This document shows positions 23,560 through 52,205 of a stretch of 64,000 nucleotides of DNA, one piece after another. Source of the DNA: Nitrospirota bacterium (lineage in GTDB: Bacteria; Nitrospirota; Nitrospiria; Nitrospirales; Nitrospiraceae); assembly GCA_040755395.1 (NCBI GenBank), contig JBFMAX010000008.1, forward strand, positions 1 through 64,000. The letters are read 5' to 3'. The position numbers were made by a program, and so were the translations under genes. Position 1 is the first letter of the stretch; each line of letters opens with the position of its first letter. The notes beneath the pieces are model-generated. The model worked only from the letters and a program-made list of their open reading frames with translations. It made no database searches and was not told the origin of the DNA.

Positions 23560-23820
23560 CTATGTTCGAAAACCAAGTCTAGCGCTCCATTTCTCAGCAT
23601 AGTTCCAATCGATGTGCAAGTCGTCTTGGCGAGCTCTGATTTTTTCCAGATCGGCCTGATCCTGAAGACGCCCGGCCAAGGTTTTCAGCACAATAAGATC
23701 CTCTATAGTCAAAATGGGCGTCTGTAGTGAGTCGAATTTAACGATCCGCCGACGGGACAACGCGGTCCGAAGATACTCCGAGTCCGCCAACAGCAGATCG
23801 ATGACGACTTCCTGAATCGA
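23560..23820 (-). pseudogene. truncated nucleotidyltransferase-like protein, 5-prime end lost at a REP element
   Basis: The frame encodes a C-terminal piece reading IQEVVIDLLLADSEYLRTAL, then TPILTIEDLIVLKTLAGRLQ, ADLEKIRARQ and IDWNYAEKWSARLGF. This is the pattern of the C-terminal half of AbiEii/MNT-like nucleotidyltransferases. The glycine-rich N-terminal active site is missing. Upstream the frame runs straight into a REP-like palindrome (23821-23882), which supplies a false start (MAEKKGSGVLIV). The insertion or a recombination at the element removed the 5-prime part. Confidence 0.65.
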
Positions 23821-23882
23821 AGAAAAGGGGTCGGGAGTCGTTTTATGACTGAGCACTATTAAGACTCCCGACCCCTTTTTCT
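23821..23882. repeat. REP-like palindrome, copy 1
   Basis: GGGGTCGGGAGTC and its complement GACTCCCGACCCC enclose a loop with TGACTGAGCACTATTAA and are flanked by A- and T-runs. A partial repeat of the right end (ACCCCTTTTTCTCTGCCAC) follows. Five such copies lie between 23.8 and 30.4 kb and none elsewhere in the window. The shape fits REP elements moved by TnpA-REP (RAYT) enzymes; no such gene is in the window. Confidence 0.85.
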
Positions 23883-24044
23883 CTGCCACGACCCCTTTTT
23901 CTCTGCCACGCTAGCTCTTCCATCTGTCCAAGCCCCTGATGGGAAACGCCTGACCCGGCGCGGCGCATTCTCCGCCGATTCATTGAGCACGTCAAGGACC
24001 ACTTAGGGTTGTGTCCCTGAGATTGTTAAAGAGGTGGCGAGGAG

Positions 24045-24108
24045 AAAGGGGCGGGCGGGAGTCGTGTTATGACTGAGCACTATGAAGACTCCCGACCCCT
24101 TTTTCTCT
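24045..24108. repeat. REP-like palindrome, copy 2
   Basis: Same element with point changes in the left arm (GGGGCGGGCGGGAGTC) and an intact right arm GACTCCCGACCCC followed by a T-run. It lies about 85 bp upstream of hicA. Confidence 0.8.
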
Positions 24109-24192: not shown

Positions 24193-24387
24193 ATGAAGGT
24201 ACGTGAACTGATCGCCTTGATCGAAGCCGATGGCTGGTTTCTTGTTCGAACGAAAGGCAGCCATCGTCAATTTCATCACCGAGTGAAGAAAGGGACGGTT
24301 ACGGTGTCGGGAAACCCTGGCGTGGATGTACCGCCCGGAACACTGAACAGCGCGCTCAAGCAGGCGGGTCTCAAGAAGCAGGAGTGA
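24193..24387 (+). CDS. hicA: HicA family toxin
   Basis: 64 residues with the complete HicA double-stranded-RNA-binding-like fold: KVRELIALIEADGWFLVRTK, then GSHRQFHHRVKKGTVTVSG with the catalytic His in GSHRQF, and VPPGTLNSALKQAGL. HicA cleaves mRNA and arrests growth until neutralised by HicB. The hicB gene follows by 6 bp. There is no Shine-Dalgarno site upstream; the promoter position suggests leaderless translation. Confidence 0.93.
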   Translation: MKVRELIALIEADGWFLVRTKGSHRQFHHRVKKGTVTVSGNPGVDVPPGTLNSALKQAGLKKQE

Positions 24388-24609: not shown

Positions 24610-25260
24610 CAACCGGTTCGAGCCGGCTCCGGGAGGTATAAAAGGGGTCGCCCATCTCGAAGGCTCTAGTCAAGGGGAAAAGAATCCTCTGCGCGCCGCG
24701 CTGGGTGCACGCGGCGTGCGTCCTTCACGTCTAGCCCTCCTCCCCGGAGGCGAGTGCTGACGCGCATCCCCGTTCTCGTTCCGGTGGTGTCGACTCAGGA
24801 TGCTGAGTCGCACCCGTCACTCATCAGGATCAAGGCATAGAAGGAGCGTGTCGAGCGGCTCCTTTCGCCCCTGGCACCTCGTGTGCCCCAGAGAACGGGA
24901 GGGAAGAAAAGGGGTCGGGAGTCGTTTTATGACTGAGCACTATTAAGACTCCCGACCCCTTTTTTCTTCCCCCTGTGCGTATCGTGCGCACACACCGTGA
25001 CGGTATACGCCACATGAGGAGCCTTCGAGATGATTATCAGGAGTCGTTGTTGGCATAAGGGCTTGGCCATCTTGACGACAGTGCGATCGCATGTGCCTCC
25101 AGTTCAATACACCGCCACCACCGCCAACCTTGCGCACGATGATCGAATCTAAGACTCCCGGCCTCTTTTCTTTTCCCTGAATTGTTAAAATATCAAAGCC
25201 TGACCTCGCCTCCCCGGACGATAGTTCCCTCCCTTCGATCTTTCCTTTGCTCCTGGCCCC
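24610..25260. other. 650-bp spacer with REP copy 3 and hairpins, no gene
   Basis: No frame looks coding. It contains a partial REP-like start near 24640 (AAAAGGGGTCG), several short GC-rich inverted repeats (for example CTGGCACCTCGTGTGCCCCAG at 24869-24889, partly paired), REP copy 3 at 24904-24966 and a half REP at about 25150-25175. Confidence 0.55.
24904..24966. repeat. REP-like palindrome, copy 3
   Basis: Nearly identical to copy 1, with both 13-base arms intact and the loop TGACTGAGCACTATTAA. It lies in the gene-free spacer after hicB. A half copy with changes follows at about 25150-25175. Confidence 0.85.
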
Positions 25261-27636: not shown

Positions 27637-27857
27637 GCCAACGACGTGCCTCCTGAATCTCCTCAGGTATGACGCGACCGGATAAACTCAAACAGTCACA
27701 ATTCCGCAAGGTAGGGTTCGGAAGGCAGCCTGGCTGAACCACGAATCATGCCTGTCGATTGGGCGCCGCCCTATTAGACGATGCTTCCAAGCTCGCTCGC
27801 CTCTTCTGTTTCCGGGACTGGCACCCGCGTTGGCTCTACTGCGGCCGTCGGGAAACA

Positions 27858-27922
27858 AGAAAAGGGGTCGGGAGTCGTTTTCTGACTGAGCACTATTAAG
27901 ACTCCCGACCCCTTTTTCTCTC
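27858..27922. repeat. REP-like palindrome, copy 4
   Basis: Same element as copies 1 and 3 with one change in the loop (TCTGACTGAG). It lies between the PD-(D/E)XK/SEC-C gene and the integrase remnant. Confidence 0.85.
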
Positions 27923-28138: not shown

Positions 28139-28811
28139 AAGCTGATCGTGTCTCTGCCGTATTATCGCGAGCGTGTCGCCAAGGTTAAGACCGTGGCCGG
28201 GCGACGGTGGCACAGCAGCAACAACATCGGACCGCACCTCACACGAAGGGGATCATCACACACCTGCTGGCCCTCTTCGCCGGAGAGCCGACGGAAGTCG
28301 ATGCTGCTCTTCGTCCACTCAACGGCGCTCACCATGACATGTCTGCAGGTGTCCCAGTCGTCCGTCCGACCGTTCCGGGAGACCATCTGCTCCTCAATCA
28401 GGTGCGTCTTGCCGCCCGCGCCCGACATCTGAGCCGCCACACCGAGCAGGCCTACAGTCAGTGGGTCAGGCGCTTCATGATCTTTCATGGCCCGCGGCCC
28501 TTGGCAGACATGGCCGAACCGGAAATCGGGCAGTTCCTCTCAAGCTTGGCGTCGCCGTCTCATGTGAGCGCCTTGACGAATCAGTCATGCAAAAAGCCAT
28601 GAAGGAGGCCCCGCTCAAAGCAGGGATGCCCAAGCCGGCGAGTTGTCATACCTTGCGGAACTCGTTCGCCACTCATCTGTTGGAAGACGGCTACGACATG
28701 CGCACGGTGCAAGAGCTGTTGGGACACACCGACGTGAGTACGACCATGATCTACACACATGTCCTGAATCGAGATGGGCAGGGCGTAGACAGTCCTGCAG
28801 ATCGTTTCTGA
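28139..28811 (+). pseudogene. integron-type tyrosine recombinase, broken by frameshifts and an internal deletion
   Basis: Three frames join into one integrase. About 28139-28230: LIVSLPYYRERVAKVKTVAGRRWH, an N-terminal extension seen in environmental IntI-like enzymes. About 28230-28590: LLALFAGEPTEVDAALRP and [20 protein letters not shown], the core-binding domain. About 28590-28811: [40 protein letters not shown], with the His-x-x-Arg and catalytic Tyr boxes. The middle part carrying the first catalytic Arg is missing (about 100 residues). The protein is inactive. It points towards the cassette that follows. Confidence 0.8.
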
Positions 28812-30275: not shown

Positions 30276-30355
30276 GGAGAAAAAGGGGTCAGAAGTCTTA
30301 GCCGGGAGTATTAATAGTGCTCAATCATAAAACGACTCCCGACCCCTTTTTCTCT
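30276..30355. repeat. REP-like palindrome, copy 5, inverted and enlarged
   Basis: Opposite orientation to copies 1-4. The right side is intact (CGACTCCCGACCCC then T-run). The left arm carries an insertion (GGGGTCAGAAGTCTTAGCCG before GGGAGTATTAA), so the palindrome is imperfect. Confidence 0.75.
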
Positions 30356-31094: not shown

Positions 31095-31285
31095 CGATTG
31101 AGAGTCCTTAAGCTTCTCGATCTGAAGGGAGATTTGGTTCAGACATGGCGCTTCTTCATGCCCTCACACTAATCCGCGAGGATGTGGTGGGTGCGCTTAA
31201 CTACGCGCGTCCAACGAGGGGTGTCCGAGACCGGGCGTTGCGTGAGCATGAAGCGCCGCGCCCAGCTCAGACTCGCGCCCCCTAT

Positions 31286-31429
31286 TCACCGTTCTGTGAT
31301 CCGCTTCGCCAAAGCAATCAACACCCCTTCGCGGAGTCCTAGATCGCTGACCAGACAGTCCGACTGGCCCAATGTCTCCATCACCGTGCTCAGGATCAAC
31401 GCTCCGGCGACGATGGCGTCTTCGCGGCC
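31286..31429 (-). pseudogene. duplicated 3-prime end of ppx
   Basis: This repeats the last part of the exopolyphosphatase gene (32520-32649 is the matching stretch, about 90 percent identical over 130 bp). Translated in the ppx frame it gives VAGALILSTVMETLGQSDCL then VSDLGLREGVLIALAKRITE, R, stop, against LIDLARRMGDR in the full gene. So it is a diverged but intact gene tail with its own TGA (31286-31288). It ends 8 bp from the stop codon of the adjacent HicA-like gene. Confidence 0.88.
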
Positions 31430-31437
31430 TCAGGCCC

Positions 31438-31668
31438 TTAAGAGTCGAGCAACGTCCGAAATTCTTCGAGCGTCAGCCCTGCTTGTCGAAGCATTTCGTG
31501 GAACAGCCACTTAGGAATGTCTCGTTTGTGCCGGTGGCTGATTCGGACTCGCAGGATCGAGCCGTTCGGCAGGAACTTCCGCCAGGTTTCGTGTTTTTCT
31601 GATCGGAGTTTTTCGAACCCTGCGCGTTTGAGGACAACGCGGAAATCGTTATACGTGAACGAGGCCAT
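31438..31668 (-). CDS. HicA-like toxin
   Basis: 76 residues of the YcfA/HicA family: YNDFRVVLKRAGFEKLRSEK, HETWRKFL (the His position of the family), then RVRISHRHKRDIPKWLFHEM and LRQAGLTLEEF. It is a predicted mRNA interferase. It overlaps the antitoxin gene upstream by 20 bp, so the order here is antitoxin first. The stop codon lies within 10 bp of the duplicated ppx tail. Confidence 0.85.
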   Translation of the reverse strand: MASFTYNDFRVVLKRAGFEKLRSEKHETWRKFLPNGSILRVRISHRHKRDIPKWLFHEMLRQAGLTLEEFRTLLDS

Positions 31669-31990
31669 GCTTGATCTCGATCAACGTACGCAACTCCCAA
31701 TCAGTCTTACACGCAGCAATGGCTTCGATGTAGGGAAGGTGGTGGGCTCGGTTGGGACTCGCGGCGTACCGATCGCGATCCCGGAGATATTCCTTGGCAT
31801 AGTCCTGAATGGCCTCAATGAGATCTTCCAAAGCGGCATCGGCGGTCGGGAGTTCTGTCACGAGATCCAATTCCGGACACTTGGCACAGAAGTAGCCGTT
31901 GTCCTTCGCAAGCAGAATCGTCAGGAGAGGCTCGGCAACCACGATCTTCGGCTCTCTTCTGCGATGCCGGCTTACCTTTGTGCTTGTCAT
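31649..31990 (-). CDS. HicB-like antitoxin
   Basis: 113 residues from the ATG at 31990, which follows AAGGGGCG. The core LLTILLAKDNGYFCAKCPEL, LVTELPTADAALEDLIEAIQ, YAKEYLRDRD is a HicB-like fold. The C-terminal block HHLPYIEAIAACKTDWELRT is typical of the antitoxins that accompany this HicA group. It is the first gene of the pair inserted after ppx. Confidence 0.75.
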   Translation of the reverse strand: MTSTKVSRHRRREPKIVVAEPLLTILLAKDNGYFCAKCPELDLVTELPTADAALEDLIEAIQDYAKEYLRDRDRYAASPNRAHHLPYIEAIAACKTDWELRTLIEIKHGLVHV

Positions 31991-32109
31991 AACCGCCCCT
32001 TTCAATGGCCTGCATTGTAGTTCAGCACGCCGGTGCGAGCAACTCGATATTCGTTCGATCACAGCCTAAGCATCAGTGGGATTTTCTGGAAACCGTGCGG
32101 GTTCAGCAC

Positions 32110-32376
32110 TGGGGCTGGAGCGGCCTGCTTCGCGAATCGCGCTTCACCCGTTGCAACCCAGGAGCAACGGGTACCCGGGCACCGCGACTTAGCGAGCAGC
32201 AGCGGTCCGCGAAGCGGACGGCGAGCACTGTCCGAAGCTGCGTTCGTGCGACGCACAGAACGCAGCCGGTTGCGCAGCCGAGCAGATGCGACGCTTAGTG
32301 CGGTCGTACGACCCATTGCACGCGGCAGGCAATGGGTACCCCGGCGTCTGAGCAGAGCAGGCCGCCCCAGCCCCGG
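32110..32376. repeat. structured palindromic element A
   Basis: Terminal inverted repeats (GGGGCTGGAGCGGCCTGCTT at 32111-32130 and its near complement ending at 32376) enclose at least four hairpins, for example GTCCGC/GCGGAC and GCTGCGTTC/GAACGCAGC, and two GGGTACCC palindromes. The motifs GCGAGCACTGTCCGA, CGCAGCCGAGC and GTCTGAGCAG are shared with element B near purC. The outer stem differs between copies but still pairs. No gene is seen in it. Confidence 0.7.
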
Positions 32377-32505
32377 CTCATGGATGCCAACCGCCAACCG
32401 GCTTGAACAGAAGCTGCGCAATCCACAGGATCAGGACGATCCGATCGACGATTGCCATCATCGTTACGGGATCGCGATACAGCTCTGCCAGCGCTGGCTC
32501 TTCGT

Positions 32506-33471
32506 TTACCGGTCTCCCATCCGCCTCGCCAGATCGATCAACACCCCTTCGCGCAATCCCAGATCGCTGACCAGACAGTCCGACTGGCCCAATGTCTCCA
32601 TCACCGTGCTCAGGATCAACGCTCCGGCGACGATGACGTCTTCGCGGCCGCGCTCCAGACCAGGCAGTCCCCGACGCTGCGTCTTGGTCCGGCGCAACAA
32701 CTCCTGCTCCAGATCTCGGATTGTTGCTAAGTTCAGCCGGTAATTGTGAATCCGCGCCGGTTCGTAGGCCGGCAGGCGCTGGGCCATCGCAGCCAAGGTC
32801 GTGATCGTGCCGGCGGTTCCGACGAAGGTGATGCCTGCCAGATCGCCGAGCTGAGCCTGCACCGTCTCCGTTTCTTTGCGGATCAGCGCTCGCGCCGCTT
32901 GTACTTCGTCCGCCGCCGGCGGATCATGATGAAAAAAGCGCTCCGTCAGACGGACGACGCCGAGATCGATCGAGCGGACGAACGGAGCCGAGCCTGGACG
33001 ATCGAAGATGAACTCCGTGCTGCCGCCGCCGATGTCCAGCGCGAGCATCGTGGAGACATCGGCCGGCAGTCCCGACCGGATCCCGAGCATCGTCCGCCGC
33101 GCTTCTTCTTCCCCGCTGATCAGCTCCACTTCCCAGCCGATGTCCCGCTTCACCCGATGCAGAAACTCGTCGCGATTGACCGCGTCGCGGACGGCGCTGG
33201 TCGCCACGGCGATGGTCCGTTCGACCGGATAGGTGTCGATCACCTGCTTCCATTCTCGCAAGGTCTGAATGACGCGGGTTATCGCTTCAGGACGCAGCGT
33301 ACGCGCGCGATCGACGCCTTCGCCCAGCCGCAGGATGCGCCGGTCCGAGCGCAACTCGGTCAGTCGTCCTGCCTCGGACACCCGGGCGATCAGCAGCCGG
33401 CACGTCAAGGTTCCGACATCGACCCCCGCCAACACTTTTTCGTCCGGATATTCGGGTTGCGTCGCGCTCAC
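32506..33471 (-). CDS. ppx: exopolyphosphatase / guanosine pentaphosphate phosphohydrolase family
   Basis: 321 residues of the Ppx/GppA family in the short form (no C-terminal HD domain). The ASKHA-type phosphate sites are clear: GVDVGTLTCRLLIARV, ATSAVRDAVN, ISGEEEARRTMLGI, LALDIGGGSTEFIF and FVGTAGTITTLAAM. It degrades polyphosphate or pppGpp in the cytosol. The last codons (LIDLARRMGDR) differ from those of the duplicated tail at 31286-31429, so its present end may have come with the island. Its start overlaps the stop of the coiled-coil protein by 4 bp. Confidence 0.93.
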   Translation of the reverse strand: MSATQPEYPDEKVLAGVDVGTLTCRLLIARVSEAGRLTELRSDRRILRLGEGVDRARTLRPEAITRVIQTLREWKQVIDTYPVERTIAVATSAVRDAVNRDEFLHRVKRDIGWEVELISGEEEARRTMLGIRSGLPADVSTMLALDIGGGSTEFIFDRPGSAPFVRSIDLGVVRLTERFFHHDPPAADEVQAARALIRKETETVQAQLGDLAGITFVGTAGTITTLAAMAQRLPAYEPARIHNYRLNLATIRDLEQELLRRTKTQRRGLPGLERGREDVIVAGALILSTVMETLGQSDCLVSDLGLREGVLIDLARRMGDR

Positions 33472-49370: not shown

Positions 49371-49667
49371 TCAACCTCCGGTCCGCTGTCGCAAGAGCAA
49401 GGCCCTCAGCTCTTCGTACACATTCCGCCGCGGACCGACAAATACGATATCCACCGTCGCCTCTTCCTCATTGATCTGGTAAATGACGCGATGAGTGCGG
49501 ACTCGATAGGACCGGTAACCGGATAACTCAAACTGGAGCTGATGTCCGGCCAATGGAGAGGTCAGGAGCATACGGATGCCTTCCTTGATCTCCTGCTTGA
49601 TCTGCGGATGAAACTTGCGAATTCTGCTGGCCGCCTCCGGAGTGTAGCGGGCGCGGTACCCCTTCAC
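49371..49667 (-). CDS. RelE/ParE family toxin
   Basis: 98 residues of the RelE/ParE fold: YRARYTPEAASRIRKFHPQI, SPLAGHQLQFELSGYRSYRV then RTHRVIYQINEEEATVDIVF and VGPRRNVYEEL. Basic residues typical of ribosome-dependent mRNA cleavage (RelE) are present, but ParE-type gyrase inhibition cannot be excluded. It overlaps the antitoxin by 4 bp. Confidence 0.88.
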   Translation of the reverse strand: MKGYRARYTPEAASRIRKFHPQIKQEIKEGIRMLLTSPLAGHQLQFELSGYRSYRVRTHRVIYQINEEEATVDIVFVGPRRNVYEELRALLLRQRTGG

Positions 49668-49942
49668 GCTTCCTCTCGACCGAACACTTGCTCATGAGTC
49701 ACCCACCGTCCGGCACCGGCCTGTTTGATTGACCGCCTCAGTCGGCGCATGGCGCCCTGGTCGCTGAGAATCTCGACTGTCTCCATCAGGCCCTCAAATT
49801 GATCCATGCTGAGCAGCACGGCGGTCGGGACGCCGTCTCTGGTAATCGCGACGATGTCCCCACGCGTCTTTAACCTGCGGATCAGATCCAGCAGCTTGTT
49901 CTTCGCCTCGGTAATGGAGACGAACTGGTCAACTTGTGGCAT
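49664..49942 (-). CDS. Phd/YefM family antitoxin
   Basis: 92 residues. The N-terminal DNA-binding part is typical: FVSITEAKNKLLDLIRRLKT, DIVAITRDGVPTAVLLSMDQ. The C-terminal part (RRSIKQAGAGRWVTHEQVFG) wraps the toxin. It likely represses its own operon at the palindromic promoter just upstream. Confidence 0.9.
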   Translation of the reverse strand: MPQVDQFVSITEAKNKLLDLIRRLKTRGDIVAITRDGVPTAVLLSMDQFEGLMETVEILSDQGAMRRLRRSIKQAGAGRWVTHEQVFGREEA

Positions 49943-50028: not shown

Positions 50029-50150
50029 TCACGCCACGACCGTGCGGCGCTGTCCTTTCGTCTTCTTCAGCGCATCCAGCATCGACAGGAAGATCAGCCG
50101 GCCGTCATCGTTGCCGAGCGCCGCTTCGGCGCAGCGCTCCGGATGCGGCA
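50029..50150 (-). pseudogene. duplicated 3-prime end of purQ
   Basis: 89 bp (50062-50150) are about 95 percent identical to 50707-50795 inside purQ. In frame it reads [30 protein letters not shown] and then diverges to TKGQRRTVVA with its own TGA at 50029-50031, while purQ itself ends [12 protein letters not shown]. The copy ends 3 bp from the stop codon of the neighbouring toxin gene. Confidence 0.9.
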
Positions 50151-50667: not shown

Positions 50668-51396
50668 TCAGCCTGGCGCCATAGCCGGCTTGGGTTGGAG
50701 TTTCGCTTTCTTCAGCGCATCCAGCATCGACAGGAAGATCAATCGGCCGTCGTCGTTGCCGAGCGCCGCTTCGGCGCAGCGCTCCGGATGCGGCATCATG
50801 CCCAGCACGTTGCCGTCGGAATTGCGGATGCCGGCGATGTTGTCGAGCGAGCCGTTCGGGTTCGCCTCCGCCGTCACCCTGCCGTCCGGCGTGCAGTAGC
50901 GAAAGACGATCTGCGCGTTAGCCTGTAAGGCGGCGAGCGTCACAGGATCGGTGTAGTAATTGCCGTCGGCGTGGGCGATAGGGATTTTCAGGATCTGACC
51001 GGGCTCGCAGCGCCCGGTAAAGGGCGTGGCGGCGTTCTCGACGCGGACATAGACGTCCTTGCAGATGAAGGTGAGCGACGTATTCCGCAGCATGGCGCCC
51101 GGCAACAATCCCGCCTCCAGGAGGATTTGAAACCCATTGCAGATGCCGAGCACCAGCCCGCCGCTCTTGGCGAATTCTTTCACCGCCCCCATCACGGGCG
51201 AGAAGCGGGCGATGGCGCCGGTCCGCAGATAGTCGCCGTAGGAAAACCCGCCGGGCAGAATGACCGCATCGAGGCCGGCCAGCGAGGTCTCCTTGTGCCA
51301 CACCATCGTGACCGACTGCCCCAACACGTCGCCGAGGACATGCGCGCAATCGTGATCACAGTTAGAGCCGGGAAAGACGACGACGCCGATATTCAT
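50668..51396 (-). CDS. purQ: phosphoribosylformylglycinamidine synthase subunit PurQ
   Basis: 242 residues from the ATG at 51396. It is the glutaminase of the PurLQS complex. Class I amidotransferase features: [15 protein letters not shown] at the start, nucleophile Cys in [20 protein letters not shown] and the His-Pro-Glu of the triad in [11 protein letters not shown]. The final residues ([12 protein letters not shown]) differ from those of the duplicated tail and may have arrived with the toxin-antitoxin insert. A TTG two codons upstream is a weaker start. Confidence 0.95.
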
Positions 51397-51400
51397 GCCC

Positions 51401-51477
51401 AAATGAGGAATGAGGAATTAGGAATGAGAAATTGTGGACCCACCATTCTCATTCCACATTTCACATTTCTAATTGCG
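51401..51477. repeat. word-repeat hairpin 10 (word like GAGGAATGAGGAAT)
   Basis: Left arm AATGAGGAATGAGGAATTAG, right arm ATTCCACATTTCACATTTCT and AATT, folding around GTGGACCCAC. It lies between purS and purQ. Confidence 0.7.
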
Positions 51478-51996: not shown

Positions 51997-52205
51997 GCGA
52001 CGGCCTCGGCCTGCGTCGCGAATCACACGAAGGCTCGGGTCACCGCACTTGGCGAACTGAAGCGGCCGCCGCAAGGCGGCGGCGAGGACTGTCCGACGTT
52101 TCGTCCGGGCGAAGCCTTGAACGGAACGAGTTCCGCAGCCGAGCGGCAGTGAGCCGTAGCACGGTCGAGCCGCAGTGTCTGAGCAGCGCAGGCCGAGGCC
52201 ATCGC
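51997..52205. repeat. structured palindromic element B
   Basis: It starts right after the purC stop codon. Terminal inverted repeats GCGACGGCCTCGGCCTGC and GCAGGCCGAGGCCATCGC enclose hairpins (GCCGCCGCAAGGCGGCGGC; GGAACGAGTTCC; CGGCAGTGAGCCG). It shares GCGAGGACTGTCCGA, CGCAGCCGAGC and GTCTGAGCAG with element A at 32.1 kb. No gene. Confidence 0.7.

Follow-up and report, generated by a model that had tools for sequence, protein, structure and literature searches.

Toxin-antitoxin gene pairs between duplicated gene ends in Nitrospiraceae genomes

Toxin-antitoxin (TA) gene pairs of several families lie between an intact gene and a second copy of its 3' end in the genome of a Nitrospirota bacterium and in its relatives of the family Nitrospiraceae, and this shared layout around unrelated TA pairs points to a common route for their chromosomal entry and persistence. 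For the pair at ppx, it is probable from sequence comparison that the cassette entered by gene-tail displacement, i.e., additive recombination through the gene end. How TA genes spread on chromosomes without transposases, and whether addiction matters there, has long been debated.

Results

The duplicated ppx tail and the enclosed TA pair

The ppx locus was analysed within a window of 64,000 nucleotides, the whole stretch of DNA under study, from the genome designated G000. As shown in Table 1, the 3' end of ppx is present twice. The two copies, detected by a repeat search and by self-BLAST, are 145 nt long and 91% identical (E = 2.7e-52). A preliminary description of this DNA had placed them at 31300-31429 and 32520-32649 with about 90% identity, and the duplication proved slightly longer. 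As had also been described, both copies read open to their own stop, the in-gene copy ending in LIDLARRMGDR and the orphan in LIALAKRITER. Their mismatches are clustered, with 1, 3 and 9 in the successive thirds toward the stop. The stop codon of the toxin gene ends at 31438 and the tail copy starts at 31429, which leaves a gap of 8 bp, within the 10 bp stated earlier.

The pair had been called HicAB-like. This name stands for the toxin, which scores above the curated cut-off of the HicA family. On the other hand, no match to the HicB profile was found in the antitoxin adjoining HicA, which matched PHD_like. The pair thus resembles HicAB type II systems in its HicA-family toxin, adjacent antitoxin gene and own promoter, and differs from them in gene order, the antitoxin gene coming first, and in the family that the antitoxin matches, PHD_like instead of HicB. 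Other genomes have homologues of the antitoxin, with 77-89% amino acid identity, at their ppx locus, and the promoter leader is also present in L211, L213, L227, L251, L262 and L267; the module brings its own promoter. The element of about 300 bp between ppx and this promoter lies outside the duplication and is a separate, later insertion. Pieces related to it gave 11 BLAST matches, itself counted, in about 1 Mb of the G000 genome, and one related piece is located in the window at 52038-52167.

Two further features were observed in this region. A decayed tyrosine recombinase at 28207-28811 retains an N-terminal SAM-like and a C-terminal Phage_integrase piece; the two are in different frames, and the part between them is lost. 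A palindromic repeat of about 62 bp, dispersed over about 10 places in 1 Mb, occurs at 23819-23880, 24043-24104, 24903-24964 and 27857-27921, and inversely at 30303-30350; it flanks a second HicA locus (24202-24384).

Table 1. Features of the ppx and purQ loci in the window, and the repeat-enclosed TA loci of the G000 genome (target / cargo)
Feature	Location	Strand	Basis or remark
ppx (Ppx/GppA phosphatase, 321 aa), target gene	32506..33471	-	Pfam Ppx-GppA, 250.9 bits
In-gene copy of duplicated ppx tail	32505..32649	-	Repeat search, self-BLAST
Element of ~300 bp between ppx and antitoxin promoter	32090..32400	.	Ends complementary by eye (~32107, ~32370)
Sigma70-like promoter of TA pair, TTGCTC-17-TACAAT	32014..32042	-	Conserved position and sequence in other genera
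Antitoxin gene	31649..31990	-	PHD_like PF12910, 69.8 bits; N-terminal part HicB-like by eye
HicA-family toxin gene, 76 aa	31438..31668	-	Pfam HicA_toxin, 31.4 bits (cut-off 27)
Orphan ppx tail, own stop after LAKRITER	31285..31429	-	Taken as displaced resident tail
purQ, target gene	50668..51402	-	GATase_5, 149 bits
ParD/RelB-like antitoxin, 62 aa	50461..50649	-	Position; weak NCBIfam RelB_ParD match, 16.9 bits, below cut-off
ParE/RelE toxin, 107 aa	50153..50476	-	ParE_toxin, 62.3 bits
Orphan purQ tail, 95 bp	50056..50150	-	95% to gene
ppx / HicA	window		
purQ / ParE	window		
Phosphoglucomutase (pgm) / PIN	L046		
cas6 / ParE-family (RelBE)	L291		TA on opposite strand
Tail of unnamed gene / HicBA	L309		
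120-aa gene / two PIN remnants	L292		
5' head of glyoxalase-family (VOC) gene / BrnTA	L296 15715-16931		216 bp, 97.7%
Intergenic 291-bp repeat / PemK	L308		90%

Recurrence within the genome

A locus built alike, as the preliminary description had held, is present at purQ in the same window, where the tail at 50701-50795 and its second copy enclose the genes of a ParE/RelE toxin and of a small antitoxin resembling ParD. A second TA pair (49371-49942; ParE-like toxin and Phd-like antitoxin by eye) directly adjoins the purQ orphan tail, without a flanking repeat of its own.

Repeats were scanned in about 1.0 Mb, roughly a quarter of the genome, using a simple gene caller, and the resulting count is partial. 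Local, compact repeats of at least 60 bp with a period of up to 2.2 kb were kept, while dispersed, massed and paralogous ones were filtered out, among them the 62-bp palindromic repeats (23.8-27.9 kb), L035, the dispersed repeats of L292/L293 and paralogous genes. Nine repeat pairs survived; eight of them hold TA genes, and the ninth is a low-complexity repeat. The eight TA-bearing loci (Table 1) have direct repeats of 90-291 bp with 82-98% identity, and their cargo comprises HicA, ParE/RelE, PIN, BrnTA and PemK. This number, with TA cargo at every locus, excludes chance, against which the two cases in the window had already been held to argue.

Gene tails are the usual target, though other targets occur. 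At L296, it is the head, not the tail, of the gene that was duplicated, and this case looks the youngest; at L308 the site is intergenic. Gene ends are thus not the sole target. The constant order and strand described before hold for ppx and purQ, but the TA genes are oriented opposite to the target gene at cas6/RelBE, at the HicBA locus of L309 and at a methyltransferase gene with VapBC in relatives.

Enrichment of TA genes between the repeats

PIN, ParE and HicA toxins were mapped genome-wide without reference to repeats. In the examined 1 Mb or so, 5 of the 13 mapped toxins lie inside local repeat pairs, where 0.095 were expected (P about 6e-8). The same held for the cargo of relatives: TA families account for at least 23 of 50 cargo genes, compared with 2 of 50 length-matched neighbours (P = 6e-7), both tests ignoring phylogeny. 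The relatives' TA cargo was assigned to HTH_3 antitoxin-like (9), PHD_like (3), HigB (3), PIN (3), Gp49 (2), ParE (2) and HicA (1); HTH_3 alone is not TA-specific, and most HTH_3 cargo proteins adjoin a toxin gene. The preliminary description had named, as the finding that would speak against it, tail duplications no more frequent at TA genes than elsewhere, and the excess observed here is opposite to that.

In E. coli K-12, flanking repeats were found at 0 of 10 TA loci once REP elements had been removed; REP elements occur around dinJ-yafQ only. In a background of 80 loci, mostly of distant phyla and totalling 1.25 Mb, four repeat pairs passed the filters, as against nine in 1.0 Mb of the own genome, and 41 pairs survived the same filters in the relatives' loci. 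These results clearly indicate that the recurrence is neither local nor due to chance. One of the four background pairs encloses a VapB-like gene in an actinobacterial MAG: at L137 (9367-10194), this gene and a PIN-like remnant, both recognised by eye, are enclosed by direct repeats of 90 bp with 94% identity, and the case may represent the same phenomenon outside Nitrospirota.

Recurrence in related genomes

The ppx and purQ tails were searched in 175 genomes of the family, the majority of them metagenome-assembled, and the matches were inspected together with 80 further ppx neighbourhoods. Additional orphan tails were found close downstream of intact ppx or purQ. In G087, G115, G114, G077 and G094 the orphan ppx tail accompanies TA cargo, namely HigBA, the HicA pair or both; orphan ppx tails are also present in G083 and G129. 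TA genes are not the sole cargo, since orphan ppx tails also accompany an adenosine deaminase gene (G008 and G183), a 3-keto-disaccharide hydrolase gene of the DUF1080 type (G179) and a trypsin-like protease gene (G144). An orphan purQ tail with ParDE-like cargo is present in G187.

A methyltransferase gene that is the convergent neighbour of ppx carries like scars around VapBC, PIN, HigBA and MNT-type nucleotidyltransferase pairs. Three methyltransferase tails stand in succession in L231 (1096-2914), L260 (17925-19744) and L281 (623-2376), spaced by about 800-870 bp. The gaps contain differing pairs of small genes, most of them TA; such triple tails are stacked insertions. Altogether, the targets include ppx, purQ, pgm, cas6 and the methyltransferase gene, and the cargo includes HicA, HigBA, ParDE, VapBC, RelBE and MNT-type pairs.

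From the direct orientation and short spacing of the repeats, they might be taken for what remains of ordinary tandem gene duplications, or for assembly artefacts. This explanation is largely refuted, and we regard it as extremely improbable: the orphans consist of tails alone and the intervening cargo varies, an identical joint was found across several genera, and cases occur in the single-contig genomes G115, G077 and G139.

The positions of the joints bear on another explanation, in which a trans-acting recombinase uses 3' gene ends as att sites and the tail of the element restores the gene. Phage and island integration into 3' gene ends does restore the tail, with the old end at the far side, as for e14 at icd. 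The loci described here resemble e14/icd in that the gene end is restored by incoming DNA and the old end is left at the far side, and differ from it in having no integrase, no fixed core by eye, inserts of about 0.5-2 kb and other types of target. The ppx and purQ joints fall in a narrow stretch across genomes, the purQ orphans of G000 and G187 begin at the same PHPER codon, and the window contains the decayed tyrosine recombinase, all of which would suit site-specific integration. However, no core motif common to the targets was seen in a by-eye comparison, no recombinase gene was found among the called cargo genes of the inserts, TA genes occur in either orientation, and head and intergenic targets occur. 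A fixed insertion site had been suspected, as the ppx orphans start close together, but the exact joints differ by tens of bp between cargo types. We abandoned the idea of a common recombinase core, because the joint depends on the cargo and is shared, probably by descent, among genomes with the same cargo. Site-specific integration is very unlikely.

Association of the in-gene ppx tail with the cargo

Of 83 ppx loci, nine carry the HicA/antitoxin pair; these nine belong to three genera. A C-terminal motif, [MA][GA][ND][RQ], which was chosen after the ends had been inspected, is present in eight of the nine pair-bearing ppx proteins and in none of the 74 others (P = 2e-10, ignoring phylogeny). 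The last 50 bp or so and the stop of G000 ppx, encoding RMGDR, are of this type, which travels with the HicA/antitoxin pair in relatives. Between G000 and G094, the TA DNA and its junction into the orphan tail run co-linearly with 85% identity, compared with 68% for their ppx genes, and the HicA of G000 shares 92% identity with its counterpart at the ppx locus of G115, although the ppx genes are only about 65% identical. The motif counts show that the in-gene ppx tail co-travels with the pair. Since the in-gene tail of G000 is of the travelling type, the orphan is probably the displaced native tail of ppx. G094 is an exception: it has the pair, but its in-gene tail ends in AKRITER, the type of the G000 orphan.

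A comparison with an uninserted site was obtained for G008. Its orphan tail is closer than its in-gene tail to all seven of the listed congeneric loci lacking the insert (for example, 0.863 against 0.792), and the sequence behind the orphan matches the DNA directly after ppx in the uninserted genomes G163 and G098, which show the empty, single-copy site. For G000, the empty site is only deduced, because no genome of the same genus lacking the insert was found in the collection. On the ppx evidence, the in-gene tail of both G000 and G008 is more likely to derive from the donor. In G077, G129 and G114 it is the orphan that has diverged further; this is expected from old decay, and does not by itself prove which copy is native. 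A general clustering of mismatches toward the stop was also considered, and failed over 22 cases (11 against 9, P = 0.3).

These data bear on a further explanation, insertion with long target duplication, in which foreign TA DNA is attached to a resident target that has broken or been re-replicated, and the sequence of about 70-290 bp at the break is copied on both sides. Both copies would then be resident and would differ by later drift alone. Such pure resident duplication does not predict ppx in-gene tails that follow the cargo across genera, nor does it suit the foreign-like in-gene tail of G008; in addition, no Ku was found in the genome. On the other hand, it would accommodate the non-tail repeats at the BrnTA head and at the intergenic PemK site, as well as the ppx joints that vary by cargo type, roughly 90-155 bp before the stop. 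The pattern is also known for restriction-modification genes, as far as PMC3031569 relates it, citing Nobusato et al. 2000. We consider long target duplication unlikely, with a better chance than the two explanations discussed above.

Discussion

The earlier proposal of a general entry route through gene-end homology, with TA genes as the typical cargo, is supported by the enrichment of TA families in the cargo and by the co-travelling ppx tail. Under gene-tail displacement, the donor would be DNA of a related Nitrospiraceae cell, carrying in order the 3' end of ppx, the promoter, the antitoxin gene, the HicA gene and the start of a second ppx tail. Recombination of this DNA with the resident gene would take place in the conserved part of the ppx tail. 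The additive outcome would be an intact ppx with the donor tail, then the TA pair, and then the resident tail as an orphan behind the toxin. The unit bounded by two tails could then be transferred, stacked or removed via ordinary RecA recombination. Because both ends of the G000 unit have homologous counterparts in a relative, ordinary recombination with a ready-built unit would suffice there. First captures of new cargo, whose joints vary by case, would probably proceed by homology-facilitated illegitimate recombination during DNA uptake. This process is known in transformable bacteria and has been proposed for the displacement of T6SS effectors (PMC2884548, PMC5361080), and in pneumococcus a bridging model is documented in which the donor fragment pairs with two sister chromatids (PMC3784515). 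A circular Campbell-type intermediate, as suggested in the preliminary description, is not demanded, as linear homologous or homology-facilitated illegitimate recombination fits equally.

We infer that the DNA arrived by transformation, was joined by recombination and was retained through addiction. The genome encodes DprA and ComEC, which counts in favour of tail displacement, while the non-TA cargo of a minority of inserts counts against it. Direct repeats of such length invite deletion of the insert, and a deletion between them would cost the cell the antitoxin, so that it should be costly for TA inserts only; a predominance of TA cargo would be expected from this, and the TA genes would stabilise the insert.

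Insertion with a long, variable target duplication has been described for restriction-modification genes of H. pylori (Nobusato et al. 2000, as cited in PMC3031569 and also in the TA review PMC2654758). To the extent that these sources describe it, the likeness consists in a small addiction-type gene set between long direct repeats of the target, which permit loss or amplification; such repeats were found here with 145 and 95 bp in the window and at eight loci in about 1 Mb. The present loci differ in that many TA families are involved, in Nitrospiraceae and mostly at the 3' ends of core genes, and in that the tail travels with the cargo at ppx and tails stack. In Rhs/T6SS displacement, the incoming gene end and small genes likewise displace the resident end, which is kept downstream as an orphan, repeated events lead to orphan strings, and homology-facilitated illegitimate recombination has been proposed (PMC5361080 and works cited there). 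Both hallmarks were observed here, namely an in-gene end that co-travels with the downstream genes at ppx (8/9 against 0/74, ignoring phylogeny) and downstream strings of orphan ends in L231, L260 and L281. Unlike in Rhs/T6SS displacement, the targets are housekeeping genes whose encoded function is unchanged, and the cargo is TA and not an effector-immunity pair. For TA modules, no description of flanking long target duplications was found in the open-access literature, with most subscription papers lying outside this search.

It is conceivable, though we advance it tentatively and at less than even weight, that TA pairs of Nitrospiraceae are minimal mobile "tail cassettes" without a recombinase, which each carry the end of the core gene in front of them, move by homologous recombination at this gene, stack there and resist RecA deletion by addiction. 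If true, tail cassettes would provide evidence from natural genomes for the retention of chromosomal TA modules through addiction. TA pairs still located between their own insertion repeats, beside non-TA inserts, constitute a countable natural experiment, in which the repeats predict the deletion rate and the cargo predicts the tolerance of deletion. In addition, an orphan gene tail behind a toxin gene offers a simple signature for recent TA arrivals and for unknown TA families.

Among the 83 Nitrospiraceae loci, the ppx C-terminus past LREGVL varies to an unusual degree, both in its length and in its sequence, perhaps as a result of repeated tail exchange.
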